Notes under the pieces: generated by a model
What the model was told of the DNA's origin: nothing
Database searches by the model: none
What the model saw: only the letters and a program-made list of their open reading frames with translations
Position numbers and translations under genes: made by a program
In this document: positions 4,422 through 39,929 of the stretch, piece by piece
Position numbering within the stretch: position 1 is the stretch's first letter
How the letters are laid out: each line of letters opens with the position of its first letter
NCBI GenBank assembly: GCA_964019135.1
Contig: OZ025256.1
Location: forward strand, 1,860,001 to 1,924,000
DNA length: 64,000 nucleotides
Reading direction: 5' to 3'
DNA from: Arenicola marina
Taxonomy: Eukaryota > Annelida > Polychaeta > Arenicolidae

Positions 4422-4639
4422 TCATACCATATAGACTGAGAAACCGAGGTCACATGCACCTAGCACAGAAGAATAACTACCCGAACACGAATTCTTGGCC
4501 GGAGTCCAGACTCCATTGGTTGCGCACATGGATCTGGAGAAATCCAGACCATCTGCAGAGCGGGTTCTCGGACGACAGGGGACAGTTTGGACGGAGTTGA
4601 TATCAGTCTTCATGCCTTCACCATCTGGTTGACACGAAC
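4422..4639 (-). CDS. Gene A exon 9: sushi 2 and terminal tail
   Basis: Reads GSCQPDGEGMKTD, then VPCRPRTRSADG, then MCATNGVWTPAKNSCSG: four Cys and Trp. In gene B this exon ends with a donor after SCSG. Here the possible donors (TCGG|GTAGTT, CTAG|GTGCAT) have no downstream exon that I can find, and the open frame runs 19 codons past the first of them to TGA at 4424-4422. I take it as the terminal exon; the alternative is a truncated, decaying gene. Confidence 0.55.
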
Positions 4640-7600: not shown

Positions 7601-10600
7601 CTCTGATCCTGACCCACTGTTGTCATATCAGGTGTTGTAGCCGGCGGAGAACTCTGATCCTGACCCACTGTTGTCATATCAGGTGTTGTTGTTCGCTGAG
7701 AACTCTGATCCTGACCCACTTTTGTCATATCAGGTGTTGTAGCCGACAGAGAACTCTGATCCTGACCCACTGTTGTCATATCAGGTGTTGTGATCGGCAG
7801 AGGACTCTGATCCTGACTCACTGTTGTCATATCAGGTGTTGTAGCCGGCAGAGAACTCTGGTCCTGACCCACTGTTGTCATATCAGGTGTTGTGACCGGC
7901 AGAGAATTCTGGTCCTGACCCACTGTTGTCATATCAGGTGTTGTGACCGGCAGAAAACTCTGATCCTGACCCACTGTTGTCATATCAGTTGTTGTGGCTG
8001 GCTGAGAACTCTGACCCACTGGAGAAGTGACATGGTAACTCATAAAACGAGACAAGAAAACTAAATCCCGCGTATTTGTGAATGATGTCTATAGAAGTAT
8101 AAATATTATTTAATTACGCTAGAGGCGCAGAACGTCATTCTAGACGGGCTTTACAATTGCTGATCAAGACACGAAGTTTTCAAGTGGATTTGCTCCTTAT
8201 CTTGCAACCTCAAACAAAGATATTTGCGGATTGTAATAAGAGAAATAATATGGGGGTTAATGACAAATGCATGGACACATGCGGGAACTTATGGTGTTCG
8301 AGGGTGGGGTGAAGATGGGGTGACTTAATGATATAGCTGACCAGCAAATCACAATAGTCTGCAAGATTCTACCATTGGATTATACGTACGGCATATATTT
8401 CTCCACGCAGAGGTATACCAGGCCGGGGGGCTCTCGATCACACCTTCGTGCAGGTGACAGTTTGATGCACCTTCGCCGTCTAGCTTGATGGCAGAACACC
8501 AAACATATTGTCGGCACTCAGCTTCACAGTCAGCTTTCGCACGCATTTCGCTGACATTGATTGCCTTTTTTTCCGCAATCGTTTCTGAGATGTCTATAAT
8601 GCCGTAGAAACAACCTAGTACGTAAAAAAAACGACACATCACGTTTTTTTCAAATGATGAGACTACTTCGTGCACTACTCTCTGCAGATTTGGAGGGGTG
8701 TGTGTGGGCGGGCGGGGGGGGGGGCGGGCTACCAGATTATGAATCTCACTGCCCGGAACATGATGTGTGGTGAGCGGGGGTGGTGGTGGTGGTGGGGGTG
8801 GGGTGGGGGGGGGGGGGTCCCAACGATAGGGTCTCAACGCTTTTAACATGTAATACGGGCAGCATTTCATATTCATTGAAAGTTAGTTTCACAGAGGTTG
8901 GATTTTGCTAAATGCAGCTTTGCGCTACTCAGCTGTTTTTCATACAATCAGCAATCTAAAACAAACAAAACATTTATACCACAATTCTACACATCTATAC
9001 GGAACGGATGAATATAAGAATATATTCTCTCAAATTGGTCACAATCAGCCGTCTGCTTTGCTTGCCTAATTGCCATTAAGTCATGGATATGACTTGGTTG
9101 CAAATACTACATTATCAGGTTATGTTGCAGTACGGCCGCACAATATCAGGCATCTTCTATCAGCAATGAATCAATTTGGTACGCCAGCACTTCCTTTGAG
9201 CCTGAACATTTCGAAAGGTGTAGTATTACCTTTGTTGCAAATATGGTCGGCGCTGAACTCCCCGCAGGTTCTGCCACCACCACGACAAGTACTGGAGGGA
9301 CAGGCTAATGTGCCATAAACGCAAACACTTGATCCATATAAGACAAATTATACAATTGATAAAACTAAATTTCTTCTTAAGTTTTAAGTGGGAGAGAATC
9401 ATAATGGAGAAGCTTTCACAGCTGTTTAATGTCAAGCTAGTCCATGTATGTATTTCCAAAAATAATAAGTAAGTATGGGAATGTATGCCTTTCTTCTTGT
9501 GTTCCGTAGTGGATCGTACAATGCCTCCTGGTAATGTCTGTGAAACCATTTAATTTTGATTACTCAGATGTAAACATGCTGCATGCGTAACTTATAAGAA
9601 ATGCAAACAACTGGGACTAAGCTGTTACTTGTTACAATCTGAAATAACATGAGGCCGGAGATGTTCGAGATTGACATGCTTACCCAGTGCGCAGTTGTTG
9701 CCAGTGGACGTCGTGTTACACCAACAGCTATAGCCGCGGTCGTACTCCCTCCTACAGGTTTGCCCCTGTTCGCACGTGTCTGTTTCGCAGGCTTCATGGG
9801 TGGTAAAGGAAGAAATTCTGAGCATGCATGCGAAATCCCAGCATGTGCCTCTTGCGGCAGCAAGCTTCATCTTGGCGGCACGGCCAAGCCAAATTTACAC
9901 GAATCCCGAAATGTCCTAAATATGCAAGAATTTCACTTGGCATCACGGTGTTGTTTTATCAACTGTATTTTTCAATCCTGCTCGCGTAGTAACTTACATT
10001 GTAAACCCTTTGGGTAAGTACGTGTGTCTGTCGCACTCATCTGTCTAATGTTTACCAATAGAGGCCTGGGTCGGTGTTTATAAAGCCTACGCCGCTGTCT
10101 GGCGGATAAAGATCATGCTCCTTTCCGTGTTTTCCGTGTTTTGCCAGAAATACAGCTGTCATATTTTCACGTTAGCTTAATTACGGCTAACTGTGCAGGG
10201 AGTATAAAAATGGGTTCAATAATATTTTTGCGTATATTCAGATAAGCGCTCGTGACAATACCGTTGAAATGCTTTGTGAAACGCCAGCCTTCCCACGAGG
10301 CACCACGCTAGCCTTCCCATGAGACACCACACCAGCCTCCCCATGAGGCACCACACCAGCGTTCCCATGAGGCACCACACCAGCCTTCCCATGAAGCACC
10401 AGGCTAGCCTTCCCATGAGGCACCACGCTAGCCTTCCCATGAGACACCACACCAGCCTCCCCATGAGGCACCACACCAGCGTTCCCATGAGGCACCACAC
10501 CAGCCTTCCCATGAGGCACCACGCCAGCCTACCCATGAGACACCACGCCAGCCTTCCCATGAGGCACCACGCTAGCCTTCCCATGAGACACCACACCAGC

Positions 10601-22566: not shown

Positions 22567-23150
22567 CTGTAGCATTATCCAAGGGATCCGCTGCCGTCAT
22601 ATAGCATTATCCAATGGATCAGCTGCAGTCATATAGCATTATCCAAGGGATCCGCTGCCGTCATATAGCATTATCTAAGGGATCTGCTGCCGTCATATAG
22701 CATTATCCAAGGGATCCGCTGCCGTCATATAGCATTATCCAAGGGATCCGCTGCCGTCATATAGCATTATCCAAGGGATCCGCTGCCGTCATATAGCATT
22801 ATCCAAGGGATCCGCTGCCGTCATATAGCATTATCCAAGGGATCCGCTGCCGTCATGTAGCATTATCCAAGGGATCCGCTGCCGTCATATAGCATTATCC
22901 AAGGGATCCGCTGCCGTCATATAGCATTATCCAAGGGATCCGCTGCCGTCATGTAGCATTATCCAAGGGATCCGCTGCCGTCATATAGCATTATCCAAGG
23001 GATCCGCTGCCGTCATATAGCATTATCCAAGGGATCCGCTGCAGTCATATAGCGTTATCCAAGGGATCCGCTGCCGTCATATAGCATTATCCAAGGGATC
23101 CGCTGCCGTCATATAGCATTATCCAAGGGATCCGCTGCCCTCATATAGCA
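22567..23150. repeat. 32-bp tandem repeat, about 18 copies, just 3' of gene B
   Basis: The unit is GTCATATAGCATTATCCAAG followed by GGATCCGCTGCC, repeated almost perfectly. Most copies differ at one position or none, so the array is young or homogenised. It starts about 115 bp past gene B's stop codon and therefore probably lies in its 3' UTR or immediate 3' flank. Each unit contains a GGATCC palindrome. Confidence 0.9.
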
Positions 23151-23264: not shown

Positions 23265-23491
23265 TCAGACAGTGGTCACTTGGTTTCGTCTCGGCCTCAT
23301 TTGCTTGTTTGGCATCTTCCTTGGCGACTTCCTACATCGACGATTCCCACACCATTGATTGCAGATTATTGGAATGTCGGAGATAATCACGAGGCCGAAA
23401 ATGGCGCCGAGGATTGCGATGGCCACGATACCGTAAACCTTCGAATTGGACGCCTCTACCGCGACAATCTCTTCCACCACATCGTTTCGCC
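23265..23491 (-). CDS. Gene B exon 16: membrane helix and cytoplasmic tail
   Basis: After an acidic juxtamembrane stretch (VVEEIVAVEAS) comes a helix of about 19 residues, VYGIVAIAILGAIFGLVII. The tail of about 38 residues is strongly basic (GNRRCRKSPRK) and contains two Cys close to the membrane. It ends NQVTTV followed by TGA at 23267-23265. The terminal T-T-V fits a class I PDZ ligand (family knowledge; binding is inferred). Acceptor CTGTTTCAG. Confidence 0.85.
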
Positions 23492-26400
23492 CTGAAACAG
23501 GAAATATACGGTTTTATGGCATGTGACATATAACATGATACTATCATCATTTATCACGTTAACAAGGACATTCAAATATTACATATTTATTTACTTCTTT
23601 GCAGCAATGTGTACTTCATGCAACTTGATTCGTGGTCGTTTTTCCCCCAGCGACTTCAGTGTATTCCTCCTGTACCTTCGCACGTCGGCATTTGCGGCGT
23701 CCAGCGACCGTCGCGACCGCACAGCAGCTCAACTGACGTCACATTTGTGTTGTCAAGGGAACAGGACACGTTGACGCGCGCGCCGTGACGTCGCGCCGAT
23801 GAGCTGATGGTGATGCCGTCCCATGTCGCGAGAGGTAGACACGTGATGACTGCGGTAGGAGAGACGAAGTAGCCAAGAATTACACACTCTAAGTTAAATA
23901 TGACATCTAAATGTGATAATACTGACATTACTGGTGTTTTACCAGAAGTGACAAGAGGAGACGCGCCTACCCTGGCAGCTCGTCGGCTGTGGAGACCACA
24001 CGCCGTCTGCTGTGCACGTGGTTGTCTTGGAGAAGACATCTCGTGTGAACCAGTGAAGTCGGACACAAGTGTATGTCACTTCACTGCGGAAGGTTGTAGA
24101 CACATCCACACTGTGCGTGGAGAGATTCACACGTGGACTTGGACCGCAGTTCACGACTGGAACGAGTTGAAATGAAACAAATTATATAACTGGAAGGTGT
24201 ACCTAAAATAATTCCAACAAATATAGATCAAGTAATGTTTAACTAAAGTGATATACAATTCTAAAGAGCCGCAATTAAAGTGTATTACCAGTTGTAACGT
24301 TGATCAAATACCCATGTATTAACACGAAGCGATGATAAAAGGCAGCTATGAATTGTTTCCTTGTAAATATCGTTCTTACCATTATGTTATTTGTTGATGA
24401 AGTATATATGTGATGAAGTTGACTACTCACGGCAACACGTCTCTAAGCTGTCCCAGAGACCTCTCTCGTTGCAGCGTGTGAGTTTGACCCGCCCCCTGTC
24501 GGCGAAGTGATACCCTGGGCTACAGACCACGTGGGCCTTCATGCCGACAGAAGTCGCTGTCGACTCTTCCACTATGTGATGATGAGAGCTGCTGAGGTTC
24601 CAGGGGCACGTTTTGGCTGTGAAATGAACGGGGTATGCGATATCACACAGCGAAATATACATTGCGGAACATCTTGATGAAACGTCTTCAGGTTATAAGA
24701 TATATCACATTGTATTGCACCACAACATGTTGTGCAAAAGACATCGTAAGGGGATGCGCCGTGGTGGGTGGATTGGAGGTCATTACCATCATCAGATATT
24801 GGGGCGGGATCATAATGGTGTCAATGGCGGAGTATGTGATATTACATAATGAAAAACATATTAGGGGGCACTTTGGTGGAACATCTTCAGGTTATAAGAT
24901 ATAACATATTGCATTGCACGACGACATGTTGTTGGAAACATATATATTCTTAGGGGATGCGAGGCTGTGGCGGTGTCATAATGGCGTCAATGGGGGCTCA
25001 TTGACATGACCCACTGCTCACCAATGCAGTTGTCGTACTGTCCCGTCTGTTTCCAGTCGACCCCGTCACAGTAATAATGGACCGGGACGCCTCTTTCTGG
25101 CAGGGCGTACCCGGGACGACACTCGTAGCGTACGGTACGACCCTTGTGCGCCGCCAAGCCGATAGCGGTGGCGTTCTTGACACTCGGTACTGGGGGACAC
25201 ATGTCATCTGTCAAACAATGAGACATTAATATTAAAAGGATCAGAAACAAAGGGGTTAACTATCTTTACGTTGATGCGCTCAGCTGAGGGACACCACATG
25301 ACCATTGACACCACATGACCACTAATGAACTATATTCCTTAGTTGGTGTAATATGCGCCTTGCATTAGCTACGGAGCATAATATAGACAGAGTATACATC
25401 AGTAGATCTGATATGAAATATAACATACTGAGAGATCAAGCGACATCAGTACATGGGATAAATTGCTTACATAGTAAATATAACCAGATCATTCAACGTA
25501 AGTACTCTAGCACCCAGTGGGGAATCGACATTGGAATACTAACTGCCTCATATACATCATATACACATATACACATATATCAAGCCACCTCAGTTCATGG
25601 CATATACAGCATATAGTGACAAAAGATCTCAGTCATCCATTCAATCGGCATGCCGATTAGATCCCGCTAGAAACCAGGACATTCGGGAAAGATGGCGGCT
25701 AATTGAAATGTAATAGATTGGTACGTACACCGGATGCAAACGGTGTGGGCACCTCAGTCATCATATATGGTACATATATATAGACAGATCAGGCGCCCAA
25801 AGTATATCAGGTACGGAAACTAACATTGAGTAGTAAAATAATGATTGAGCCAATGAGACATCAAACTGCTTCGGCATTTTCTGATATGGTATATGCATCC
25901 ACAGACCAAACCAGCTAATTAAATACCTATCTGACGAGATTTTCTTACAAACTATTAGCTTTAGAACGACTTCTCGACAGACACCTAACCTTTGCAGGAC
26001 GATATTTGGTCCGACCAAGTGCCTTGCCCCTGGCACTGTATGACCTTTGACCTGTATCCGTCCGCCATTCTGCGGTCCCCGTCACACACGTACTCCAGTA
26101 CTGTCCCGAAGGTGGCGCCACCAGTCCCGTTGTTGGAGGCGTGCTGCACGGCGGGCGGAGAGTCGCACGTGATCACTGGAAGACATAGACAATGTCTGCC
26201 TGAGTGAATTCATCCATGTGATTGCACAATAAAGATTAAAAGGAGTGCGGCACAGGCATCAGCATGATCTCACAATGCACGGCGCATACCGCCTGGCGAG
26301 AGCCAGAGTGCGTTACATGTGTAGAGGAGCGGAAAGCCCTACCGATAGTTCCTAATTCATAGGCCCCCTATGGAACGCCCCTTTTACAGAAGTAGTCGAA

Positions 26401-29400
26401 CTGTTCTTATTGTATAGATTGGTGGCCTATGTATATGGTGGTAATAAAAGAAATAAACAGAAGAAAGACATACGATCTGTAGGCTAGACGAGGTGATGCT
26501 GTCACCAAGGGACGTAAAATACCAATTCCTTCATTCATCTCCGCGTATATACGATATTAGTCATAAATAAACAATACTTAGTCTAGTTCATACTTTCAGC
26601 CCCTTATCAACAAAAAAAGAATATCCCATGGCCAATACAAAACACCAACCGTTGTTGGCTGTAGGATGCATACATCTTTAGTGTCCAATTTTATGGCTCG
26701 CTCGGAGTCGTGATTGGCCGAAGAAGACTTGTTGCTCGTTGAATTGTTGTCTTTGTTCCCAAACTTAATGTCCTTATTAGGGCCAACTATGACCACAACT
26801 ATTATCATTTATTATGTGAATAAAGTTGTACATGCAAAAGCATAGTATCAGATAGTAAGCTCGCCTTGGGTCTGTTTTATTTAAGGTCACTGGTGTTATA
26901 ATACCAACAGGAACTGCGATCATTACATCGACCACGACAATGAGAAGGGGCCAGATAGGACCCTTTGAGGGTATCAACATAATATGTAACAACGCATCGG
27001 CGCTGTCGAAGCAATATTTGTCCGACCCATCAATTGAAAGATCGAAGTTCCTGTACTTCCATCGATTGCCCCAAGGGTTGAGATATAGGGTCCGTCATGG
27101 AAGCGGACTCACCGTTACAGTCCGGGACCGAGTCGTTCCAGGATCCGGTCTCTGTACAGAACACCGTGTGGACGGTCTGCCAGGAGGGAAGGTGAAAGCC
27201 CGGATGGCAAATCACCTTCACCTCTGTACTGTACATGGCTATATTAGTGCTGAGCGTACCGTGGAGGGGCTGGCGCAGCGGCGGGCACACCTCAACTAGT
27301 GGTAATAATGAAGGGAAAACAAGTAACTGTGATAAACCAAGTGACAAGCAAGTATGACATTTTCACTACGTATGCCAAATTATTTTCAGTTCAAATTACT
27401 GAATTTCTGCCTTTGCAGTCTGCAGTCTTGTTGAGATATATTCTATTGTGGATAGCAAGAACATTTAACTTAGCTAGTGTGCGTTGTGGTCGACAAAAAT
27501 TCAAAATGCAAATGATAGCATTTATTTGCATTGCTGAAACATTTCCTCTTTTTTTCTCTTCGTTTATCTAATTTACACGTTTGCGATTTTTGTATTCCAC
27601 ATGTTGATATGTTTCTGTCTTCTAATGTATGCATATACTTATTATATAATATATCCGCATAATCATTCTGTATAATGACCTTGGCAGTCGTCGATAAAGT
27701 CCCACTCGCCATTCTCCAGGCATAACATTTCCGTTTCCGTTGTTCCATCACCAAATCGGTGCCCATGGCGACACGAGGCGACGGCATGCACTCTCTCATC
27801 AACGGGTTGTGTCAGGGCCAGGTTTGCATTATCAAACATAGGAGGAGGGCGACAATGTGAATCTGCGGATGGATGAAGATCAAATTACACATGAACAACC
27901 ATTTTAACCATCCCAATAGTGTATCTGAAATTAGTTTCTAAGATTTGCAAAGGCGGTGTATGCGTCTGTTCGCTATCTTTGTTTATGGAACATGGACCGC
28001 CTTGTATATTTCCATGCTCCTTGCTATCTGTTTTGGAATCACTGGATCAGCAGGCTAATGTTTTGTTTAATGTTTCTCATTAATATGAGGCATCGAGATG
28101 ATATTAAACTTATCTGATATTAGGCCTGACCTCGTGTTTCATTTCACCTATGTACGTACGAATCTCGGTATTTTCGGAAACGTAATTGTCACCAGTAAAA
28201 ACTGACAAAGCTAGTTCACATGCACCTGGCACAAAAGAATAATCACCAGAACACGAATTCTTGAGCGGAGTCCGAACTCCATTGGTTGCGCACGTGGATC
28301 TGGAGAAATCCAGACCCTCTGCAGAGCGAGTTCCGGGACGACAGGGGACTGCTTTGACGGAGTTGATATCAGTCGTCCTGACTTCGCCTTCTGATTGGCA
28401 GGATCCTGTTGAACACGAAGGGTTTATGGCAGTGCACGCTGCAGCTGTGGGTTCCGCTGTGTACAGTGTGCACAGTCTGAAGCTTTGCACCAACATATTA
28501 TGATCTGGGATATCAACATGCGCTCAACTCCCTTCCGTGCAATGCTATCAGTATATTGGCCTAGCTAGCAAATAGATCATTGAATCTTGGTGGGCAGCGG
28601 TTTATCACTAGCCCTCTTAATATAACTATTGAGCATCGTCAATAGTAACAATGCTGTGACTGATATATATAGATTTGATTGATATCATCAATGTCATAAA
28701 TTGGTGTGAAAGGGGCGTCGTGTGGAATATGCCAAATAAGTTGGTGTTTCCATATGGAGGGTGTTTTCTTGTAGATCAGCTCACGGTGCTGGAACATGGG
28801 TGGAAAATGGTACAACATATCAAGATTCCACACAGAAGCGCTTCAGAACGAGAGAATTCTTGTTTGCTGACGACGCAGCGCCTGTCGCCCATTCCGAAAG
28901 CCATTTACTGCCTTTCTTGGTCTCGACTTGCAAATGTGTGTGTGTTATTCGCTCTACTTACTACATGAGGTAAGAAAGTTGTAAAGAGTCAAGGGGTATA
29001 GCCATACCGCCGGTCACTATCAAGAATGGCTTTATAGAGATTGTAAACAAATTGTAACCTGGACATTCCAGTTACGGCATGTGTTCTTGGCGCCCTAGCT
29101 GTTCTGTGTCAGCGCAAATAGTGTATGCAAGAACGACACAATAGAGCAACAATGTTAGCTAAGGCCATCCATCGATTTGCCTGGCTCTTATAAAACAAAG
29201 ACATCTTCATTGGCTTCGGTAATAAGCGCAATTGTTCAAATGAATCGAAATAATTAAATTTCAACTCAATAAGCTGCATCATCTTACGCCGGCGGGCCCA
29301 TGTCAACCAACCATACAACCCGTAAATGTTGACTTAAATAATTATTGATATTGACACATCAAGCCTTTGCTGACTCGATCATGCTATTGTTATTAATAAT

Positions 29401-32400
29401 CACGCGACCATTGGTTAGGCTACAACTGGCCCTTTATAGCATCCACTTGATGTGGATGTGATTGCAGCCTGACGCGCATGTTGCTATGGCAAACATTCGT
29501 TATTCCTGCCACGGAGACGATACGTGGCTGTGTATACTCCCCTAGACTCGCTACCCACTGGTATGACGCAAGTTAAGCAGTCCAACGCATGACATACGCA
29601 TCCCCCAATGGCCGCCCAACGTTACCTCTACATCCCTGGACTCCGCTCTTCCACTGATATGACGCAAGTTAAGCAGTCCAACGCATGACATACGCATCCC
29701 CCAATGGCCGCCCAACGTTACCTCTACATCCCTGGACTCCGCTCTCCCACTGATATGACGCAAGTTAAGCAGTCCAACGCATTACATACGCATCCCCCAA
29801 TGGCCGCCCAACGTTACCTCTACATCCCTCGACTCCGCTCTCCCACTGATATGACGCAAGTTAAGCAGTCCAACGCATGACATACGCATCCCCCAATGGC
29901 CGCCCAACGTTACCTCTACATCCCTGGACTCCGCTCTCCCACTGATATGACGCAAGTTAAGCAGTCCAACGCATGACATACGCATCCCCCAATGGCCGCC
30001 CAACGTTACCTCTACAGCCACTGATGGCTGTGACGCTCCAGGAGCCGCTGGGCAGACATATGATGGTCCGGGACACCCCGCCCTCCGGAAAGCGGGTTCC
30101 GGGCACGCAGGAATACGTCAGGAAGTTGTTTGCCCGCAACGATTCGTATTCCATCCTGGTGTTAGGGACAACCGGGGAAGGGTGGCACTCGACTGAAGTG
30201 TCCGAAACAATGTACAATGAAAACAAAATGACCATGTGCAACTTATAAGTCCCTTTAATACGGTAACAATTAATGAACAAATGAGAACTCTTGCTTGATT
30301 TCCTGATTAACATTTCTTATCGTTATTCTACTATCTGCGGGCTTTATTCAGTTGGCATGCAATACAAATTCGTCAATCAATTCTCATCTACGTTGTATTG
30401 TTATTCTACGTTGTATTTCAGAGTCACACTTGGGCACTTCCAAACCTGGAGCTTGTTCGGCTATGGGGGTATCAGAAAACTCCATCCGAATGTCGCCCGG
30501 CTTCGGAGCTGTTGTCACAGATACAGACATCTGTTCACGGTTCGCTGTTCTTAGATCAAATGATGTTGAAGGATGTGATTTGTACTTATGGTCCACTGTT
30601 GTTATATCAAGAGTTCTTGCAGGCCTATAGCTCTTTTTCTCGTCGAATGTTGATATATCGTGTGTTGTTGTTGGCAAATAACTCTGGTCTTGATTGAATG
30701 TTGTTACATCAGGTGTTGTTGCAAGCAGAGAACTCTGTTCCTGGTTGAGTGTTGTGACATAAGTTGTTGTTTCAAGCAGCGAGCTTTGCTCTTGATCCAT
30801 TGTTGTTACAACAGGTGTTGTAGGCAGAGAGCTCTGTTCTTGATTCAGTGTTGTTACATCAGGTGTTGTTGCAAGCAGAGAACTCTGTTCTTGATTCAGT
30901 GTTGTTACATAAGGTGTTGTTGCAAGCTGAGAACTCTGTTCTTGATTCAGTGTTGCTACAACAGGTGTTGTTGCAAGCAGCGAACTTTGTTCTTGATCCA
31001 GTGTTGTTAAAACAGGTGTTGTAAGCGGAGAACTCTGTTCCTGGTTGAGTGTTGTTACATGAGGTGTTGTTGCAAGCTGAGAACTCTGTTCTTGATTCAG
31101 TGTTGTTACAACAGGTGTTGTAAGCAGAGAACTCTGTTCTTGATTCAGTGTTGTTACAACAGGTGTTGTAAGCAGAGAACTCTGTTCTTGATTCGATGTT
31201 GCTACAACAGGTGTTGTAAGCAGAGAACTCTGTTCTTGATTCAGTGTTGTTACAACAGGTGTTGTAAGCAGAGAACTCTGTTCTTGATTCCGTGTTGTTA
31301 CATGATGTGTTGTTGCAAGCTGAGAACTCTGTTCTTGATTCAGTGTTGTTACATCAGGTGTTGCAAGCGGAGAACTCTGTTCTTGATTCTGTGTTGTTAC
31401 ATGAGGTGTTGTTGTAAGCTGAGAACTTTGTTCTTGATTCAGTGTTGTTACACGAGGTGTTGTTGTAAGCTTAGAACTCTGTTCTTGATTCTGTGTTGTT
31501 ACATGAGGTGTTGTTGTAAGCTGAGAACTATGTTCTTGATTCTGTGTTGTTACATGAGGTGTTGTTGTAAGCTGAGAACTCTGTTCTTGATTCTGTGTTG
31601 TTACATGAGGTGTTGTTGTAAGCTGAGAACTTTGTTCTTGATTCAGTGTTGTTACATAAGGTGGTATATTAGGGGTTGTAGTCGTCAGCGAACCCTGTTC
31701 TTGCTGCGTTGTAGTTATATCCAGAGTTGCTGCAAGCATAGGTGTTGTGGCAAACATTAAATTCATTTTCGGTCCCACTGTTATTATATAGGCCTACAGT
31801 GTTGCCGAGAGATCTGTATGGCACAATGCATAGAACATCCGGGTGGAATAGCATGTATTACTAAATAGATACATAGTATGTTCAAATACTATAATTTATT
31901 TCAAATTAATAAGTCATTTTGATTCATCGCTCCACCCCCACCCTCCCCCCTCCCAAGCTCATGTAAAAGCATCATGCTTACAACAGAAGAATTAATTAAG
32001 CACGATCCCCCTTAAAGAATATACACCACACGAATGGGCGGCAACTAGCTGCCACCAGTCACTTGCCGAACGGCCAAATAACGAATATATAACGCACGAT
32101 CACCTTTCTCGCAGATGAACCGCCAGCTGGACGTGCAATCCAAATTTTGCCACCCACTGAACGTCATCATGACGCAGGCGCCAAACCCATTAGGTTCATT
32201 AGGGGCCCATGAGTGGGGAACGTAAGGAGTGTCATCCACCCAACGCCATGCCTCGGACACTATTATCATTCCGATCCAATACTCGCCAGCGCTGAAGTTA
32301 AATGTAGCCAAAGAAAACGTCATGTGACACATCGACTTGCTGGACGTATATATACGCACAATGAGGCATACAAGTACCAAACAAGCGCGCGTTACATTCG

Positions 32401-35400
32401 CTTTGTATTTGATTATGTCTTCTGTTAAATTGAGTATTATGTGTCAGTCAGCATGATTTTGCCCTTTAAAAGAAAATAGGATATTTATCAGAATTAGTTA
32501 AAGCAATATATTCTGTAATTTTTTGTGTTACCAACCTCTTCCCCATGTCAAATAAGTCTTGAATTTAAATTCTGAAAGCCTGTGGGCTATCTGGAGAGAA
32601 GCAATTTGTTTACCGGAGCAGAAGTTGGTGGCCGGCTTTATATCCCTGCGCGCCTGTTCGCTGTTCGGTATTTTGTGTGTGACGTCGACCACGGCTCGCT
32701 ATCACGTCCGCGTGATATAAATAGACCGCGCAGTTTTGTGTTGAAATTTCTGTTTTACAGACTCTCAGAGATAAAAAACATATATGCATCATAATTTTGA
32801 GATACTTTTAGTCTTGATTCTAAAATATAAAAATTCTTAGATGGCGCATGTAAGTGTATTGCTTTAATTCCCCGAAATTTAAGAAATGTTTAAATACAGC
32901 GAAGCTGTTTATGTGAGGTGGGTTTTTCTTTCTTTCGACTGCCTAACGTAAGTGGTGTTAAGTACATATCAGCACCATTTCCTTGTTATTTTGCACATAT
33001 TTTCGCACTACGCCAAAGTTATTTTACAGGTGCGGGCAACTTAGGCTCTATAACAAGAGACGGAACCACTTAGCAACAGTAGTGAGAAAGGCAAAGACGA
33101 ATATTGAACCTAAACCCCTCTGCACAAGGAAAAGAAAAATCCATCACGCGCCGTTTTAAATCATGTGTAACATATGCTTTGACCTGTCCCCACATGGCAG
33201 ATCGTCCATATGATGAATATGAAATAATAATATTAATATAACATAGTATTATAAATACTTATTTTTTAGACGCTTGCCTAATAAATTTCTGTTAATGCGG
33301 CAACAATCTCAGTAGTAATGGTAGACCCATAAGCAACAACTTTGAGAAATTCGTTTCACTGGTGTTAGGACGGTCACATTCGTCTGAACCCTCGATTAGG
33401 CGTGGAAGGAAAACTTACCTTCTGCTCGTAACAAACGTTTGCTCATTGCTGTCTCCAATGGTGACTAAGTCAGCCCCGTGGCCCAAGCAATTGTCGCGAC
33501 TGGCTGTATAACTACGTAGCTGACTGGACATATAGTAGCAATAGCCTTCGTGTTGATGCCAACCACGTCTACATGGATAGTCTGAAACAAGTTAACATAC
33601 ATTGGTATATGGTCTGATAAGTGACATGTTCAACTGTTTTAAGAGTACTCTGCTGCTATAAATACAAAATACGACCATAACTTGACTGAATTGCCATCCG
33701 TCAAGACGGAGTATTCTTTTATTTATTCGTGTAAATATGTGTTAAATACGACCATAACTTCACTGAATGGCAAATTACCAAGAGTAGTCTACTAAATTTC
33801 CTTGTAAATAGGTACTAAACACGACTATAGCTTCACTGGATATCCCTTAACCGGATTAACTTTTAATGAGGGGAATGGATCACCGTGGCGACATCTTGAG
33901 AGTACTATTTGTATGTGACCGTTGCTCCACCTTGCGGGCATTTTTTCCCAATATTAATCCAATGTAAATAACAGCAAATAACAACGAATAATAAAATAGC
34001 AGAACCTTATTCACTGTAAAATATGTAGTTCCGCGAACTACATTAATCCCGAGTTTATGAATCGTCGCTTTTCCCATCGAATCTTGAAGCGTGTCGTTAT
34101 CATTTTGTATTATAGTACGTGCATTGTATTGTTTCCGGAATGCACGTCTTACGGCAAAATGAAGTAGAGACTGTATCAGTGAGTATATACTTTGGCTTCT
34201 ATGTCATCAATGTTAAAGTGCCATCAAACCCCGATCGAATCAAATCAAACCGCAATGTTATGCTGGCACTATTTCAAACGTGTATTATCATAATTGATTG
34301 GATCGATATGAGCGAATTCCGACATAATTACAGATCCGCTTGATCATAGAACTGATTATTGCATCACAAGGGAATGTTTTGTAGATAACTTTTTTCCTCC
34401 CGTTCAATTTTTATGTTTGTGACAGATGCGTTGTTACCTTTGTGGTCGTTTTCACGTGCGTGAGAATGTTTACGTTTGTGCTTTCGACAGGGCCCACCAG
34501 TTCAGGACAGGCCCTGGCACTCGCCTTTCGACACTGAGAATTTTGAAAAAGCTACACTGGACACTGGACCCACCCCCCCCCACTTCCAGTTCCATAGTAT
34601 TTGCCCTGGATTGTTAGCTAGGTCCTGGATATATTGCGTACTAACCTATCTCTGTGTTATACTTGTCTTTCCATTATGTACTTAAGTCCGCGGCCCGAGG
34701 AAGAACTTAGTACCAGTCAGCATGAGGTAGCATTCAACAGACCGGCGATATTTATCTACAAATGCGAATTACCCCGGGATCTCTTACGTTCGATAAGTAA
34801 TGAAGCCGTATATGTATAAAAGAGCACGTTCACCATACAAACACCCTCTCACTGGTGGCCGCGCACATGTTTGTTGTATTCGGATGTTCAGCGGCTTTAT
34901 ATATACTATGCACAGTGTGCCCCCCCCCCCGCCCGGACCCACTCTATGAAAAAAAAAACATTGTCTTCGTTAGTTAAGGGTGCATTAAAAATAAATAACA
35001 AATAAATATTATGCTTATGAACGATTAATCAATTGCAGTCACCTTTCTCGCAGATACTCGGGTAGTACGAGGTGCATGGTCTATTCCGCCACCCGCCGGC
35101 CGTTATTGTGGTACAGGACCCGTACAAATCCGGCTGCCCGGGGGCCCAGAAAGTATCGCCCAGCCGTGTGCCGTCTACCCAACCCCGAATCACCGACTTC
35201 GTCAGGCCGATCCAGTTGTACTGAAAAGTTAGTCCAGTGCTGGACGGAATAAAAAGAACGGATGGCTTACCCTTGAATTACCTTTGACGTAAAGAAATAC
35301 ACCAGTGCTACAAAATAGAGAAGTACATTTGTGATTGCACATTGCCACAACAGAAAAATCTGCGCCGCAGATACCAAGCGAAGAGCAACATAATTTAGAT

Positions 35401-38400
35401 AACGCAAATTACTATACAATTACATTTCCCTACGAAAAGGAACGAGCTGCATCAGTGCCACAGCGCGACGGACTACACCAATGTTACAACGTGAATAACT
35501 ACACAGTGATTACAACGTCAAGCGGCACAGCAGTGCCACAACGCGACGGACTACACCAATGTTACAACGTGAATAACTACACAATGATTACAACGTCAAG
35601 GGCCACAGCAGTGCTACACGGCGACGGACTACACCAAAGTTACAACGTGAATAACTACACAATGATTACAACGTCAAGGGCCACAGCAGTGCTACACGGC
35701 GACGGACTACACCAATGTTACAACGTGAATAACTACACAATGATTACAACGTCAAGGGCCACAGCAGTGCTACAACGCGACGGACTACACCAATGTTACA
35801 ACGTGAATAACTACACAATGATTACAACGTCAAGGGGCACAGCAGTGCTACACGGCGACGGACTACACCAAAGTTACAACGTGAATAACTACACAATGAT
35901 TACAACGTCAAGGGGCACAGCAGTGCCACAGCGTGAAAAAGGCTTCTTTGCCGCAACTGTTCCATTGTTAAATCAAAAAGTACCGCACAATTCTATTGCA
36001 CCAGAGAAACATACACAAATCAATGCAAAACTCTTACACACTTTCGTGAAATCAAGTTAGGTGTATAACAGCATCATTTCCCCAGGGGGGGCGGGGGGGC
36101 GGGCACTCTTGTACCAATCTGGTGGGGGGGTTCCACGAGTGCCTTGATGCCTGAGAGATAGCGGATATTTGTGATGAAAAAGATACCTCTTTAGAGCGGA
36201 TATTTGAAGACTTGCCGCGAAAAATAGCCCTTCCGAGATGATTTTGGAGATAAAACGACCCGGCCGGGCGGAGTTTGGCGGTTAAAAAGGTGGGGCTCTA
36301 CCATGACCCCCCCCCCCCCCACCAAACCCAGCCATGTATTAAGCCCTGGATCACTTCCTTCTTTTCTTCTGTTCATCTTTTCTCTGCATTTTTTGTCATC
36401 TTTGCGCACAACACCAAATTTACGTTACAGGGTTTGGCAACTTAGGCTCAGTAGCAAGAGAATGACCCAATAGCATTATAGTCGGCACGGACACTATTTG
36501 CCGCCTCGTTTTCTAATTTGACACGAAATGTTTCATTGACAAGCCTAAAATCAGTTTATATTTGTCGATTTGAACCAAAGACCCAACAGAATTTGGCGTA
36601 CTCACAGTCCTGTTATCAAAAAAATTCACCTGATGCCAACATATATCACGCAAACGAAGCAGACAAGTTTCGCTATGGCCGTCGCTCTGTTTACCTTGTC
36701 ATCTGCCACGTCTGTGGGCTATAGTATTGCTGGTATTTTGGGCAGGGGGGTTAGGTTGTGTCAATGTCAAGCCGTAACTTGAATTAAGCTTACATGCGTT
36801 TATAGTTCCTCTAATATATATGAACATTGAAGCTACAAACTCATACCTTTTGCATTGCTTTTGCTTTGAGACGCTAAAATTACTGTTAGTATGGAAACTT
36901 TGCATGGGCACGTAATGCTCTGACCCCTTTTCTAGTGCCTGATATTAGACTCTTCCGTGGGCTTGCTTCTTTTAACCAATAAAAACGCAGTGATATGACC
37001 TTTACCTTACGACGTCATAAAAAGGCGGCTGTCAACACACTTTAGCCTGCTATACTTTATGCTAGAGACTATCGTGTTGTACTGTTACTAAACAAGATAC
37101 ATTTTCAAGTAAGTTGAAATCACAAGGGTCTCGTGTAATGGGGCAAATAAATACATAAATTGTGGCTGCAAATGGTGCACGGACACAAATAATTGCGAAA
37201 GCGAGGCGGCAGATATTAAAGGCGCCGACTATAGTAAGGAAAAGTCCCCGCAATTCCCTGCTTAGGCAGCTTTACAGCTGGCAAAGATGAGGATATGTTA
37301 TTCCTGTTCGAAGAGGGGTAACCTATATCCACCACGTGCCCTCCGGATAGCAAATGCAAGCATATATGTTAGATGGTCGCTATATATAGCAAAATAGTGG
37401 CGGATCGGGTGCTGAACACGGATGCAAAATATCCACCACGAAGCGTTTCAAATCATGTATAACATATGAAGTGACCGGTCCCCACACCCATCATCACAGA
37501 TCCTTAATAGCGAGCGCAAGCGAGCTCTTAAGGTAACATGCATGCATATTCAAAGTCCATTTCAAGCATAGGCTTAGGACTTTCATTTCGCGTAACAACC
37601 CCCATGAAACGTTTTCGGATTCGGAGTAAATATCAGCTGTACATGAATATATTCAAGCAAAGAGAGGTTGAAGTCTACTATGGCATGTCTTTAATAATTA
37701 AATCAGCTGCCCCACAAAATTAACGAATCAATTATTCAATGTTAACATTGGATGTATGCTTCAAATTAAAGTTAATTTATAAGCGACAGGCTAAATGTCT
37801 GTTGCCAAGCAGGGTGCTCTTTGTGACCGCCCGTCGGCTGCTGTCACAGTGAGTAGTTGTGACGTCAAAATGTCATAAACATGACGTCACAATAGGAGTT
37901 CCTAAGCAACCGAAATGATATGCAACAAGCACGTGCATGGTATCCGCCAAAGCTATTCTTTATGGCAAGCCGTAGTGAGATTAATTGTGAATATTAGTCT
38001 AGATGTATCCTCTCGGAATATCTGAATTAATAAATATACGCTCGCATTTTTTAGGTAGCACCTATCCATATTATGATTAATATGCAAAACAGATAATGTC
38101 AACATACCATAGCATAATTAATACAAACTTTTGCTTGACGTTTTTTTAATCAATGGCAAATCATTGTATGGGTCATCAAAAGATAACGAAAAGACATTAC
38201 TGCCAATGTGGATAAAATCTAAGCAGTAATGGTAGGCCTAACAAATATCTACTGGGAGCAAGCCGCGCCAGTGGTATTAGGACGGTCACATTCGTTTCAA
38301 CCATGAATTAGGCGTAGATGTAAAACTTACCTGATGCTTGTAACAAACTCTTGCTCGTTGCTGTCTTCAATGGTGACCAGGTCAGCTCCATAATGCAAGC

Positions 38401-39541
38401 AACGGTCGCGACTGGCTGTATAACTACCCGACGCTGTATCACTGGACACATAATAGCATCGGTCGCCATTGTTATACCAACCATTCTCACACGGATAATC
38501 TGAAACAAATTAACATACATTGCTAAATGATCATTGCGACGTTTCGTGCTTTATAAGTGACACCTTCAACTGTTTCAAGGGTAGTCTACTGCAAGGATAT
38601 ACTAAATACGATCATAACTTCACCGAATGGCGATTCGTCAACGATTATTTATCCGCGTAAATATGTACTAAATGCAACCATAATTTCACTGAAAGTTGAT
38701 ATGTCAAGAGTATTCCGTTAAATTTCCGTAAAAATAGTTACAAATTATTATATAAGGGTGTAAATAGGAACTAAATGCGAACATAACTTCACTGAATAAT
38801 GACCTGTCACGGGGGTCTATTATCATATCTGCATGTAAATAAGTACTAAATGCGATCTGTCAAAAGTAGTAAAGATATATTTCTGTGTACATAAATACTA
38901 AATGCCACCATAACTGAAGGGCAATCCACCAAGAATATGCAAAACAGCTAAATTATTGACACGTTTCATGACAATAGCATGATACTGTTCGTATGCATGT
39001 CAACTTTCATCGAGAACAGACGTCAGCCCGGGAAAACTGTAGGCGATGTGTGTGTATGGGTACCGGATATACTCCACGCGGCCTCAAACGCCTCTGAAAC
39101 TAATGCTATTTGCGCCTCGTTTTTCGCCATTGATATGCCTTTTGGTAGCATAAACTATTAAATAATCGAGGTGTCCTACTAAAATGGTGTTTACATTGAT
39201 ACCCTGGCATGGAAGACAATACGAGATTCGCCAGCAATCTGCTAGCTAAGGTCTAAAATCAAGGGATCAATGGTCAGCTTTTCATTAGGTGAAAACATGA
39301 TGGTGTTGGGTTTATGGTGGCGGGCGTACGAAAGACAAACGCATTTTATTCTGCATTTAAATATATAAATAAAACTCGTTTAACCGCATATTAATATACA
39401 TATTTACAATATCAGTAACGTTCTTCACTTACACTTCTATATAATGGCGACGCGCTTCTTACCTGCGTGAGACCCCGGTATCCCATATAGTACTGAGCTT
39501 ATGATCCAGATCCCGAAAGTCAAGGAGGGAAAACGAATCAT
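23265..39541 (-). CDS. Gene B: selectin-like transmembrane receptor (2 C-type lectins, mucin stalk, 9 sushi, TM), 16 exons
   Basis: Predicted type I membrane protein of 1326 residues. Exons from 5' to 3' on the minus strand: 39541-39463, 38499-38331, 35239-35043, 33581-33419, 32291-32104, 31777-30446, 30192-30010, 28405-28247, 27862-27680, 27295-27113, 26175-25990, 25207-25022, 24616-24431, 24156-23971, 23849-23676, 23491-23265. Every intron is GT-AG. All junctions are phase 1 except the two inside the lectin domains, which are phase 2. Lengths sum to 3981 nt, exactly 1327 codons. Residues: signal 1-26, lectin 1 27-148, lectin 2 149-265, mucin stalk 266-709, sushi 1-9 710-1251, membrane helix about 1270-1288, tail to 1326. 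The likely role is cell-surface carbohydrate recognition or adhesion (inference from domains). The fold order resembles selectins, but there is no EGF domain. I do not recognise a named orthologue. Exon 28405-28247 has a second in-frame donor downstream. Confidence 0.85.
23676..23849 (-). CDS. Gene B exon 15: sushi 9
   Basis: Encodes ITCLPLATWDGITISSS, then VNVSCSLDNTNVTS, then LLCGRDGRWTPQMPTCEG. Four Cys and Trp; shorter than its neighbours (58 codons). NVT is an N-glycosylation sequon. Acceptor CTACCGCAG, donor GAAG|GTACAG, phase 1-1. Last domain before the membrane exon. Confidence 0.85.
23971..24156 (-). CDS. Gene B exon 14: sushi 8
   Basis: Encodes VNCGPSPRVNLSTHS, then VTYTCVRLHWFTRDVF, then TTTCTADGVWSPQPTSCQG. 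Four Cys and Trp. Acceptor CGTTCCAG, donor CAGG|GTAGGC, phase 1-1. Confidence 0.85.
24431..24616 (-). CDS. Gene B exon 13: sushi 7
   Basis: Encodes KTCPWNLSSSHHH, then AHVVCSPGYHFADRG, then LTRCNERGLWDSLETCC. It has the four sushi cysteines, the Trp and one extra adjacent Cys at the end. Acceptor TTTCACAG, donor TGCC|GTGAGT, phase 1-1. Confidence 0.85.
25022..25207 (-). CDS. Gene B exon 12: sushi 6
   Basis: Encodes DMCPPVPSVKNATAIG, then VRYECRPGYALPERG, then VHYYCDGVDWKQTG and NCIG. Four Cys and Trp; typical RPGY loop. Acceptor TTTGACAG, donor ATTG|GTGAGC. Confidence 0.85.
25990..26175 (-). CDS. Gene B exon 11: sushi 5
   Basis: Encodes ITCDSPPAVQHASNNGTGG, then LEYVCDGDRRMADG, then VIQCQGQGTWSDQISSCKG. 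Four Cys and Trp are present. Acceptor TCTTCCAG, donor AAAG|GTTAGG, phase 1-1. It lies just outside the block duplicated into gene A. Confidence 0.85.
27113..27295 (-). CDS. Gene B exon 10: sushi 4
   Basis: Encodes VCPPLRQPLHGTLS, then VKVICHPGFHLPSW, then TVFCTETGSWNDSVPDCNG. Four Cys and the Trp are present. Acceptor ACCACTAG, donor AACG|GTGAGT, phase 1-1. It is absent from the duplicated block in gene A. Confidence 0.85.
27680..27862 (-). CDS. Gene B exon 9: sushi 3
   Basis: Encodes SHCRPPPMFDNANLAL, then AVASCRHGHRFGDG, then MLCLENGEWDFIDDCQG: four Cys plus Trp. Acceptor CATCCGCAG; the donor CAAG|GTCATT is weaker than its neighbours. This exon has no counterpart in gene A, where a deletion removed the matching segment. 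Confidence 0.75.
28247..28405 (-). CDS. Gene B exon 8: sushi 2 (conserved Trp replaced)
   Basis: Four cysteines are spaced as in a short sushi module: GSCQSEGE, then VPCRPGTRSAEG, then TCATNG and NSCSG. Where the family has Trp before the last Cys, the codon is CGG (Arg). The gene A copy keeps TGG (Trp). Acceptor TTCAACAG. Two phase-1 donors are possible: TCTG|GTGATT (used here) and CCAG|GTGCAT 24 nt further on, which would add eight residues. Confidence 0.7.
29551..30016. repeat. 96-bp tandem array carrying repeated splice donors
   Basis: Nearly five units of 96 bp run from inside sushi exon 7 of gene B into its intron. Each unit includes, on the minus strand, the exon end TGTAGAG and donor GTAACGTTGGGCGGCC. 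Donors fall at 30009, 29913, 29817, 29721 and 29625; only the first ends the full exon. Units are nearly identical, so the expansion is recent. Confidence 0.9.
30010..30192 (-). CDS. Gene B exon 7: sushi/CCP 1
   Basis: Encodes a sushi module with all four cysteines and the conserved Trp: VECHPSP, then FLTYSCVPGTRFPEGG, then TIICLPSGSW and SGCRG. Acceptor ACACTTCAG; donor AGAG|GTAACG at 30009-30008. The donor and its surroundings are repeated four more times downstream in a 96-bp array (29551-30016). The duplicate in gene A is 6692-6874. Confidence 0.8.
30446..31777 (-). CDS. Gene B exon 6: mucin-like Thr/Ser stalk, about 22 repeats
   Basis: One open exon of 1332 nt. About 22 units of 16-17 residues follow the pattern TTPxVTTxNQEQSSxL, with more diverged units at the C-terminal end. 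The composition (Thr, Ser, Pro, Gln; no Cys in the arrays) suggests an O-glycosylated extended stalk between the lectins and the sushi domains. The unit length mix of 48 and 51 bp keeps the frame. Acceptor AACAG before TGGGACC; donor CCAG|GTTTGG. The homologous exon in gene A uses the same donor position. Confidence 0.8.
32104..32291 (-). CDS. Gene B exon 5: C-type lectin 2, C-terminal half (EPN)
   Basis: Encodes GEYWIGM, then WRWVDDTPYVPHSWAPNEPN, then ACVMM, then GWQNLDCTSSWRFICEKG. EPN is the tripeptide associated with mannose-type specificity, in contrast to QPD in lectin 1. WND is replaced by WQN. Acceptor AACTTCAG, donor AAAG|GTGATC. The exon leaves phase 1 into the mucin exon. Confidence 0.85.
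32486..32830. repeat. Dispersed repeat of about 340 bp, copy 1 (lectin 2 intron)
   Basis: Direct copy of 44088-44425. Shared blocks include CTGAAAGCCTGTGGGCTATC, GAAGTTGGTGGCCGGCTTTA and AGATACTTTTAGTCTTGATT. No inverted ends or tail were seen, so it may be a segmental piece and not a transposon. Confidence 0.75.
33419..33581 (-). CDS. Gene B exon 4: C-type lectin 2, N-terminal half
   Basis: Encodes DYPCRRGWHQHEGYCYYMSS, then SYTASRDNCLGHGADLVTI and GDSNEQTFVTS. Acceptor TTTCAG, donor AG|GTAAGT, phase 1 in and phase 2 out, as in exon 2. The exon and its flanks are a tandem duplicate of 38.3-38.5 kb. Both copies have the same AT-rich degenerate repeat in the intron just upstream. Confidence 0.85.
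33640..33860. repeat. Degenerate AT-rich tandem repeat upstream of lectin 2 exon
   Basis: Three loose units of about 65 bp share AAATACGACCATAACTTCAC and TGTAAATA-type blocks. The same repeat is at 38570-38920 beside the paralogous lectin 1 exon, so it was present before the exon pair duplicated. Confidence 0.7.
35043..35239 (-). CDS. Gene B exon 3: C-type lectin 1, C-terminal half (QPD)
   Basis: Encodes TGLTFQYNWIGLTKS, then GWVDGT, then FWAPGQPDLYGSC, then GGWRNRPCTS and ICEKG. QPD is the tripeptide that in vertebrate lectins goes with galactose-type binding. The usual WND calcium motif reads WRN here, so calcium site 2 lacks its usual Asp. The acceptor is CCGTCCAG at 35240-35247. The nearer TTTTCAG (35221) would put the domain out of frame, so I rejected it. 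Donor AAAG|GTGACT. Confidence 0.85.
35450..35935. repeat. 78-bp tandem repeat, about 6 copies, in lectin 1 intron of gene B
   Basis: Units include GACGGACTACACCAATGTTA and GTGAATAACTACACAATGAT, with period 78. The plus strand stays open for 241 codons (35335-36060) because 78 is a multiple of 3. This lies inside the intron between the two halves of lectin 1, antisense to the gene, so I treat it as a non-coding minisatellite. Confidence 0.8.
36080..36355. mobile_element. MITE-like repeat with G/C-tract ends, copy 1
   Basis: Bounded by a G run (36085) and a C run (about 36307-36320). It shares AGAGCGGATATTTGAA, CCGGGCGGA and TGTATTAAG blocks with 52470-52820, in the same orientation. It lies in a gene B intron. 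Confidence 0.6.
38331..38499 (-). CDS. Gene B exon 2: C-type lectin 1, N-terminal half
   Basis: Acceptor TTTCAG, donor CAG|GTAAGT. It encodes the first half of a C-type lectin domain: DYPCENGW, then CYYVSS, then SYTASRDRC, then GADLVTIEDSNEQEFV. The first and second domain cysteines and the LVTI strand are clear. The exon leaves phase 2, completed by C from exon 3 to give Ser. It is a close paralogue of the exon at 33419-33581, including intron sequence on both sides. Confidence 0.85.
38570..38930. repeat. Degenerate AT-rich tandem repeat upstream of lectin 1 exon
   Basis: About five loose units of about 65 bp with ACTAAATGCGANCATAACTT-type cores, matching 33640-33860. It lies in the intron between signal exon and lectin 1. 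Confidence 0.7.
39463..39541 (-). CDS. Gene B exon 1: signal peptide
   Basis: ATG at 39541 opens 26 codons beginning MIRFPS, then a hydrophobic core (FGIWIISSVLYG) and a small-residue end (GSHA). The donor GCAG|GTAAGA leaves phase 1. Joined to the next exon this gives SHA followed by DYPC, a plausible signal peptidase site just before the first lectin. I chose this ATG because it is directly followed by the hydrophobic core and the phase fits exon 2 exactly. A five-copy 16-bp repeat lies 58-137 bp upstream of it. Confidence 0.8.
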
Positions 39542-39598: not shown

Positions 39599-39678
39599 CC
39601 GGGTACGGTGCGGTCCGGGTACGGTGCGGTCCGGGTACGGTGCGGTCCTGGTACGGTGCGGTCCGGGTACAGTGTTGC
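39599..39678. repeat. 16-bp repeat, 5 units, upstream of gene B
   Basis: Five units of CCGGGTACGGTGCGGT with few changes, 58-137 bp upstream of gene B's ATG, in the 5' UTR or core promoter region. The unit contains GTAC and matches the gene A upstream variant GGTCCGGGTACGATGT at 14 of 16 positions when rotated. Confidence 0.85.
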
Positions 39679-39929
39679 CCTGTCACGACCTAATGGGCAC
39701 TGTGGTTTCCGGCTACAAGAAGGCAATACGGCCGCCTGGAGTCCCTTTGGCAACAGCAATGCGTCGGAACATGCCACATCCATCTTTCATGAGTCTCCGA
39801 ACGTTCATGACTAAAATATGTACCCGCTCCTATTCCTCAACCAGCGGGTGATGCTCAATATACAAAATATAGGTGTGTGTCAAGTGTGGTGCACGTCTGC
39901 TACCCGATGGAGGTGGCGGCCTAAAACAC

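Follow-up and report, generated by a model that had tools for sequence, protein, structure and literature searches.

The 64,000-nucleotide stretch of DNA analysed here (the window; G000:C9:1860001-1924000, in a genome of 867 Mb and 762 contigs) carries on its minus strand, from position 39541 to 23265, a predicted gene for a surface protein with C-type lectin and sushi domains. This window gene is one of about thirty mostly clustered receptor genes. An earlier note on the DNA had proposed 16 exons with matching phases and a complete frame, and this was borne out: all 16 exons were located, GT and AG are present at every joint, the phases match throughout, and, with exon 14 ending at 23971, the exons join into a single open reading frame with 1317 codons and a stop (Table 1). 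The length of 1326 residues given in that note did not hold. Use of another exon 8 donor, 21 nucleotides earlier (GTGATT in the window), yields a predicted protein of 1310 residues, which we prefer because four of the five paralog genes read (six loci) end exon 8 there, with GTAAGG in L023, L024, and L026 and GTGAGG in L076.

The predicted architecture comprises a signal peptide, two C-type lectins, a stalk rich in serine and threonine (S/T-rich), nine sushi modules, a membrane helix, and a basic tail with a PDZ-type motif, the order that had been proposed. A Pfam scan and hydrophobicity agree with it, except that Pfam recognizes two Lectin_C domains (E 1.8e-28 over the whole protein) and only eight sushi stretches (E 5.7e-28); the ninth module, encoded by exon 8, is degenerate, with four Cys and zero Trp. 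Residues 1254 to 1272 form the top hydrophobic stretch (the membrane helix), and the signal peptide is the second. As had also been claimed, no EGF domain was found at E ≤ 1 in the scan of the whole predicted protein, and the mucin-like exon, which encodes 35% S+T and 7% P and is built from imperfect repeats, comes after the lectins. Tandem arrays flank or interrupt the gene at 22570-23150 (just 3'), 35453-35930 (intron 2), and 39599-39674 (just upstream of the start codon), and at the beginning of intron 7 the 96-bp copies (97% matches) supply several near-identical candidate 5' splice sites.

Table 1. Exons of the window gene and related features (positions in the window).
Feature	Position	Strand	Basis or remark
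Exon 1: ATG and signal peptide MIRFPSLTFGIWIISSVLYGIPGSHA	39463..39541	-	relatives 64-81% identical in 6 fetched loci
Exon 2: C-type lectin domain 1, first half	38331..38499	-	frame and Pfam
Exon 3: lectin domain 1, second half (QPD loop)	35043..35239	-	frame and Pfam
Exon 4: lectin domain 2, first half	33419..33581	-	frame and Pfam
Exon 5: lectin domain 2, second half (EPN loop)	32104..32291	-	66% identity across four paralogs (L050-L053)
Exon 6: mucin-like stalk, imperfect 51/99-bp repeats, donor CAG/GTTTGG	30446..31729	-	donor kept in most, not all, paralogs compared
Exon 7: sushi 1	30010..30192	-	frame and paralogs
Exon 8: sushi-like module 2, degenerate	28247..28405, alternative end 28226	-	donor by homology with paralogs
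Exon 9: sushi 3	27680..27862	-	frame and paralogs
Exon 10: sushi 4	27113..27295	-	frame and paralogs
Exon 11: sushi 5	25990..26175	-	89-100% identical to paralogs
Exon 12: sushi 6	25022..25207	-	frame and paralogs
Exon 13: sushi 7	24431..24616	-	frame and paralogs
Exon 14: sushi 8	23971..24156	-	frame and paralogs
Exon 15: sushi 9	23676..23849	-	frame and paralogs
Exon 16: transmembrane helix, basic tail ending QVTTV (class I PDZ-ligand type), stop	23265..23491	-	frame and genome matches
Five tandem 96-bp copies, start of intron 7	29540..30016	-	repeat exon 7 donor junction
Partial relative of the gene	4464..8013	-	mucin exon 8013-7123, sushi 1 6872-6696, sushi 2 4637-4464

A paralog with the same exon order, together with the pooled ratio of nonsynonymous to synonymous substitution rates (dN/dS), supports a real gene. 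The paralog L076, 22.5 Mb away on C9, has twelve exons, 5 to 16 (exons 1 to 4 fall outside the piece), in the same order and 54 to 95% identical, and its tail also ends VTTV. Loci L037 and L050 belong to this gene too, and the locus sets for identity, dN/dS, codon bootstrap, and splice edges count that gene twice. Pooled dN/dS among paralogs ranged from 0.17 to 0.78 over exons 7 to 13, stop-bearing exons (L032 exon 11, L058 exon 7) and matches covering <80% of an exon having been left out; in the codon bootstrap, exons 7, 8, and 11 lay below 1, exon 13 touched 1, and exons 9, 10, and 12 spanned 1. Sushi exons 9 and 10 have ratios near 1 and few changes. A loose scan of a few bases around the aligned exon ends placed AG and GT beside exons 7, 9, 10, 11, 12, and 13 in every paralog locus scanned (12, 19, 21, 21, 20, and 18, respectively). 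At exon 8 it found AG in 23/23 and GT in 21/23 loci, this GT not being at the inferred donor, and at exon 5 AG in 5/9 and GT in 9/9. The stalk donor CAG/GTTTGG is retained in two further genes with the stalk type of the window gene (L076/L050, L053), and CAG/GTTGG occurs in four of the five loci of another stalk type (L027, L043, L044, L077); in L042 the stalk end differs and a donor is not evident. With the low-complexity filter off, an S/T-rich match to exon 6 (36 to 67% identity) lay next upstream of sushi 1 in all 12 loci other than the window gene that showed both (11 genes; L027, L028, L042-L045, L050-L053, L058, L076), and L077 likewise has one upstream of sushi 1.

Genome searches with the tail, sushi, and lectin exons reject a single unique gene, the view taken in the earlier note, and reveal instead a large, mostly clustered family. 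The tail exon (exon 16) gave 41 genome matches; 32 of them, the window gene included, had E ≤ 1e-12, and none of these 32 contained an internal stop. All but three of the 32 lie on C9, where 29 were found, 13 of them within 24.32-24.83 Mb; further C9 matches are near 0.01, 1.8, 5.55, 8.2-9.06, 26.8-26.9, and 33 Mb, and single copies are on C3, C5, and C6. The sushi search returned at least 151 matches (150 of 285 candidates scored) and the lectin search at least 115 (150 of 193 scored), which fall in the same clusters as the tail exon, among others.

Partial loci accompany these genes. The partial relative in the window has sushi parts ~76% identical and the first Cys of sushi 1 replaced by Trp, and no neighboring lectin or sushi 3 to 9 was found (E ≤ 1e-3; window plus 20 kb on either side). 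C9:1832736 holds a tail exon. Lectin loci without a tail exon nearby, including x24301 (24300965), x24479 (24479292), x24687 (24687050), x26843, and others, occur among other places in the 8.1-9.06 and 24.30-24.85 Mb regions of C9, and such loci may encode secreted proteins or lectin-transmembrane proteins without sushi modules, or may have decayed. Conversely, the C9 tail exons at 8237658, 8989219, and 9060576 had no sushi nearby among the matches listed. Gene g24434 shows a single lectin in the 4-kb piece read, which ends before the upstream region; the two-lectin layout is not necessarily fixed. At C2:51736749-51745013, sushi reading frames run without interruption for very long stretches, 2041 and 630 codons.

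The predicted tails of the window gene and L076 end TTV, which is of the class I PDZ-ligand type (S/T-x-hydrophobic). Six further tails end TTV, TTV, TSV, TTG, TAV, and TAL, and since five of the six fit T-x-[V/L] despite the letter changes, a working PDZ ligand is favored.

Head and body of these genes differ sharply in how far they have diverged. Identity to the window gene is 84 to 92% in exon 12, 85 to 88% in exon 10, and 80 to 85% in exon 7 (78% in L077), with the exon 11 values in Table 1; it is 61 to 75% in exons 8 and 9 (short split pieces aside) and 39 to 66% in exon 5. Among 19 paralogs (171 pairs), the body DNA, that is, exons 8 to 13 encoding sushi 2 to 7, introns included, is 93.3 to 99.2% identical, g1810 (body 66 to 68%) having been excluded from this set; the body of the window gene is 76 to 77% identical to theirs. 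The lectin back halves of 17 genes have a median identity of 55%, with 103 of 136 pairs below 65%. In a direct comparison of the 17 genes (134 of 136 pairs usable, two having too few sites; g24704 left out), the median proportion of differing synonymous sites (pS) was 0.210 in the lectin back-half exon versus 0.049 in exons 8 to 13, the corresponding nonsynonymous medians (pN) were 0.255 and 0.026, and head pS exceeded body pS in 116 pairs. Without the four EPN-head genes the median pS was 0.153 for the head and 0.053 for the body, and the head was higher in 64 of 78 pairs. A fourfold gap in silent divergence within one gene suggests that its parts have different histories; part of the gap could also come from a differing mutation rate or from misalignment of the short lectin exon. 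Exon 10 of paralogs L020-L041 stands out by an unusually low dS to the window gene (0.09 versus 0.33 for exon 7 and 0.36 for exon 8), possibly a conversion tract.

The trees of head and body also conflict. In the body tree g26828 and g26883 pair as sisters (100/100), their bodies being 99.1% identical over 3,175 columns, whereas their heads share 37 of 60 residues and the head data reject the pairing (approximately unbiased [AU] test, p 0.008); the head tree puts g26883 with g24767 and g24824 (100/98), a grouping that the body data reject (log-likelihood lower by 480). With a stop in exon 7, g26828 may be a pseudogene. Three further genes, g24612, g24767, and g24824, have near-identical bodies, and their grouping is rejected by the head data (p 0.0076). 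The head type of the window gene is common to four genes of the 24-Mb cluster (100/100), and the body data reject its grouping with those four (p 0.006; the window gene is a long branch). These AU p values are somewhat optimistic because the groups were picked after the FastTree trees had been inspected. The opposite case also occurs: the heads of g24434 and g24645 and those of g8631 and g8786 show 0 synonymous differences, while the bodies differ at 12/242 and 7/245 sites, respectively. Tree conflict and synonymous contrast together imply that heads and bodies recombined or were homogenized separately. Clear similarity of g24369 to g24434 and to g24767 stops ~20 bases upstream of exon 7, with only weak 66 to 72% stalk matches between g24369 and g24767 beyond that boundary. 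In contrast, g26828 and g26883 are ~86% alike across the mucin exon and exon 7, diverge into intron 7, and are near-identical only in the exon 8-13 block. The idea that every pair switches cleanly at one place shortly upstream of sushi 1 is thereby rejected, and breakpoints therefore vary.

Variation in the lectins is unevenly placed. Among 23 distinct back halves (9 of 32 rows were dropped: both lectins of the window gene, four EPN heads that are near-identical, one partial row, and two duplicates), WIGL, WxW, DGT, FWA, CVIM, and ICEK form a near-fixed core, and entropy peaks just after WIGL, at the two neighbors of the loop proline, in the part of the loop that follows, and at the positions after GW. 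The loop motifs include EPN, QPD, QPK, KPG, KPT, KPD, EPD, EPT, RPD, RPG, and TPG. By region, pN/pS was 1.04 ahead of the loop, 1.42 within it, and 1.33 and 1.37 beyond it. Both EPN and QPD are motifs of the sugar type, and a calcium-dependent sugar site pairs either of them with WND.

The lineage of the host was read from contig C762 (15,942 bases), the mitochondrion. Its order is cox1-N-cox2-D-(atp8)-Y-G-cox3-Q-nad6-cob-W-atp6-H-nad5-F-E-P-T-(nad4L)-nad4-C-M-(rrnS)-V-(rrnL)-L-A-S-L-nad1-I-K-(nad3)-S-nad2; the bracketed genes (atp8, nad4L, rrnS, rrnL, nad3) are presumed placements in gaps, and frames besides cox1 were named by eye. One strand holds all ten frames of >140 codons and 21 of 22 transfer RNA (tRNA) calls, the exception being a doubtful second Val tRNA call; Arg tRNA was not called. 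Reading AAA as Lys gives the expected motif STNHKDIGT in cox1, and this speaks against the echinoderm code. The order is of the Lumbricus type. According to PMC4866719, Clitellata, Siboglinidae, Nereididae, Alvinellidae, Terebellidae, and further groups have this protein-gene order in common, and it agrees with the ground pattern of Pleistoannelida; according to PMC4505326, every annelid mitochondrial gene studied is on one strand. Given this gene order and code, the host is taken as an annelid. A chordate origin of the gene, which the earlier note had assumed, is thus rejected, and a reading as an ancestral selectin is left without support.

Likeness to selectins is one of layout. The window gene has an N-terminal C-type lectin and sushi repeats followed by one membrane helix and a short tail, but not the EGF domain after the lectin, the vertebrate descent, or the closest lectin relationship to selectins: no selectin was among the best 60 of 92 and the best 60 of 136 solved-structure matches to the two window lectins, in which the mannose-receptor group ranked top and CLEC4 types ranked high. 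Selectin orthology is therefore rejected. The label "selectin-like" survives for the layout and fails for the EGF domain, descent, and nearest solved relatives. The mannose-receptor group (PLA2R, FcRY, DEC-205, MRC2), which holds the top-ranked solved relatives of both lectins among the listed matches, has eight or more tandem lectins and, unlike the window gene, no sushi body. Among solved structures, complement receptors CR1 and CR2 match the sushi rod best (E 2e-86 and 2.8e-31; the solved-structure E-values for lectins and sushi rod sum over repeated domains) and carry a long sushi stalk on a membrane helix, with no known lectin head or mucin stalk. Furrowed of Drosophila, a single gene, shares the lectin, sushi, and membrane layout and has one lectin and no known mucin stalk. 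It is an invertebrate protein described as P-selectin-like (PMC5820395) and, compared here by description, is set apart from the window gene by its planar polarity role. The vertebrate L-, E-, and P-selectins likewise have an N-terminal lectin, sushi repeats, a single helix, and a short tail (for part of this layout, PMC5820395); the window gene differs in its two lectins, lack of EGF, S/T-rich stalk before the sushi modules, annelid host, and large clustered family whose heads have diverged.

The family follows a variable-receptor pattern, with many clustered copies, a constant membrane part, and a variable ligand part. Botryllus fester, compared here by description, is a sushi-bearing, membrane-anchored, diverse receptor under selection; its diversity is largely allelic and due to splicing at one locus, and the portion of PMC3549757 drawn on mentions no lectin. 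In bivalves and other invertebrates, C-type lectin families have expanded into large lineage-specific repertoires with unusual partners, including sushi, and repertoires in Annelida vary in size (PMC10140915). The text of that source mentions neither mucin nor selectin, and the part used describes no fixed sushi-transmembrane body or head-body decoupling for those families. Neither a named family with this domain order nor such an annelid family was found in searches for one among open-licence papers (subscription papers were not covered), in agreement with the earlier note as to the former. Our impression is that studies of immune diversity in invertebrates have paid little attention to annelids.

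We favor, with moderate confidence, the interpretation that these genes form a germline-diversified family of annelid surface lectin receptors in which a conserved body bears a fast-changing ligand-binding head, and we lean slightly toward immune (or symbiont) recognition as the likeliest role, ahead of allorecognition or gamete recognition. Wide divergence of the heads is what would be expected if such receptors follow targets that change. The protein would be a type I membrane receptor whose sushi rod, helix, and short basic PDZ-type tail carry the lectin head on the S/T-rich stalk. Stalk and rod would keep the head away from the membrane, the head would bind glycans or proteins of microbes, symbionts, or other cells, and the tail would bind PDZ scaffolds, which would position or cluster the receptor. 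Diversity would stem from germline tandem duplication, head-body exchange or conversion, and perhaps selection for amino acid change in the lectin. We entertain only tentatively, as a doubtful extension, a germline combinatorial system in which arrays of bodies and heads, among them lectin heads lacking a nearby body, lie on one chromosome, and intronic conversion or unequal exchange around sushi 1 keeps regrafting different lectin-mucin heads onto a homogenized sushi-transmembrane body, with body-less heads as donors.

Several observations count against this interpretation. The receptor is known here as a gene predicted from genomic DNA. Some copies look damaged: L058 exon 7 (g26828) and L032 exon 11 contain stops, L031, the fifth paralog gene read at exon 8, has lost the GT of its donor, L028 has AT instead of GT at the stalk donor, and g24704, a short fetched piece with a partial lectin exon, is possibly another such copy. 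Near-identical copies could in part be assembly duplicates. The predicted window tail contains no tyrosine, and so no tyrosine motif, and the tail of g1810, ending TTG, lacks the PDZ motif. Neither lectin of the window gene has a complete WND partner, CTLD1 (C-type lectin domain 1) pairing QPD with WRN and CTLD2 pairing EPN with WQN; the ligand therefore need not be a sugar, and calcium-dependent sugar binding is uncertain. For the lectin back-half exon pN/pS was 1.22 in 23 heads (codon bootstrap 0.88 to 1.65; P = 0.11) and 1.47 in 14 genes (0.96 to 2.39; P = 0.039), and for the front-half exon it was 0.70 in 9 loci (0.49 to 0.94). Because the back-half ranges include 1, we do not claim positive selection on the heads as firm; it is only suggested.

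Clustered, fast-changing heads on a constant body would fit allorecognition or gamete-recognition receptors equally well, the heads then telling self, mate, or species rather than microbes, and the sushi-bearing fester belongs to Botryllus histocompatibility (PMC3549757). About thirty copies in several clusters, some of them damaged, are unlike a single polymorphic locus, however, and we consider this role unlikely. The genes could instead encode developmental adhesion molecules of the Furrowed or selectin layout that underwent recent neutral duplication and head decay. Their lectin-sushi-transmembrane layout would suit this, as would the P-selectin-like description of Furrowed and its planar polarity role (PMC5820395), the damaged copies, and a head pN/pS not clearly >1. 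Orthologs of an adhesion gene would nevertheless be expected to be few and conserved, and here the heads differ at a median of 25% of nonsynonymous sites while keeping the frame, most cysteines, and the ICEK core, which makes neutral decay of adhesion genes quite improbable.

The gene model might also fuse two genes, one for a secreted lectin-mucin protein and a separate one for the sushi-transmembrane part. Read-through of the mucin exon meets a stop ~60 bases past the donor, the intron spans only ~250 bases, a tail exon is lacking near some lectin loci, and the stalk donor of L028 and the stalk end of L042 depart from the rest. Yet most paralogs compared keep the stalk donor, phases match at all joints, and the S/T-rich exon 6 match adjoins sushi 1 upstream in every one of the 12 loci noted above, so we hold a fusion to be very improbable.

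Elsewhere in the window, a 24-bp minisatellite of ~148 copies occupies 10284-13835 (58 to 59% GC, with strong strand skew) and is open in one plus-strand frame for 1208 codons. Reverse-transcriptase-like open reading frames, by eye of the long interspersed nuclear element type, lie on the plus strand at 39925-42747 and 46072-47634, the first set being broken by a stop at 41201-41203.

The family also shows that a layout resembling that of selectins can emerge outside chordates, probably independently. If expression and population data agree with the favored interpretation, the family would clearly exemplify a receptor repertoire that separate evolution of head and body has diversified in the germline, in which C-type lectins would take a role held elsewhere by immunoglobulin or leucine-rich domains. 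Were the combinatorial extension also true, the annelid would possess an evolvable, perhaps individual-specific, lectin repertoire.

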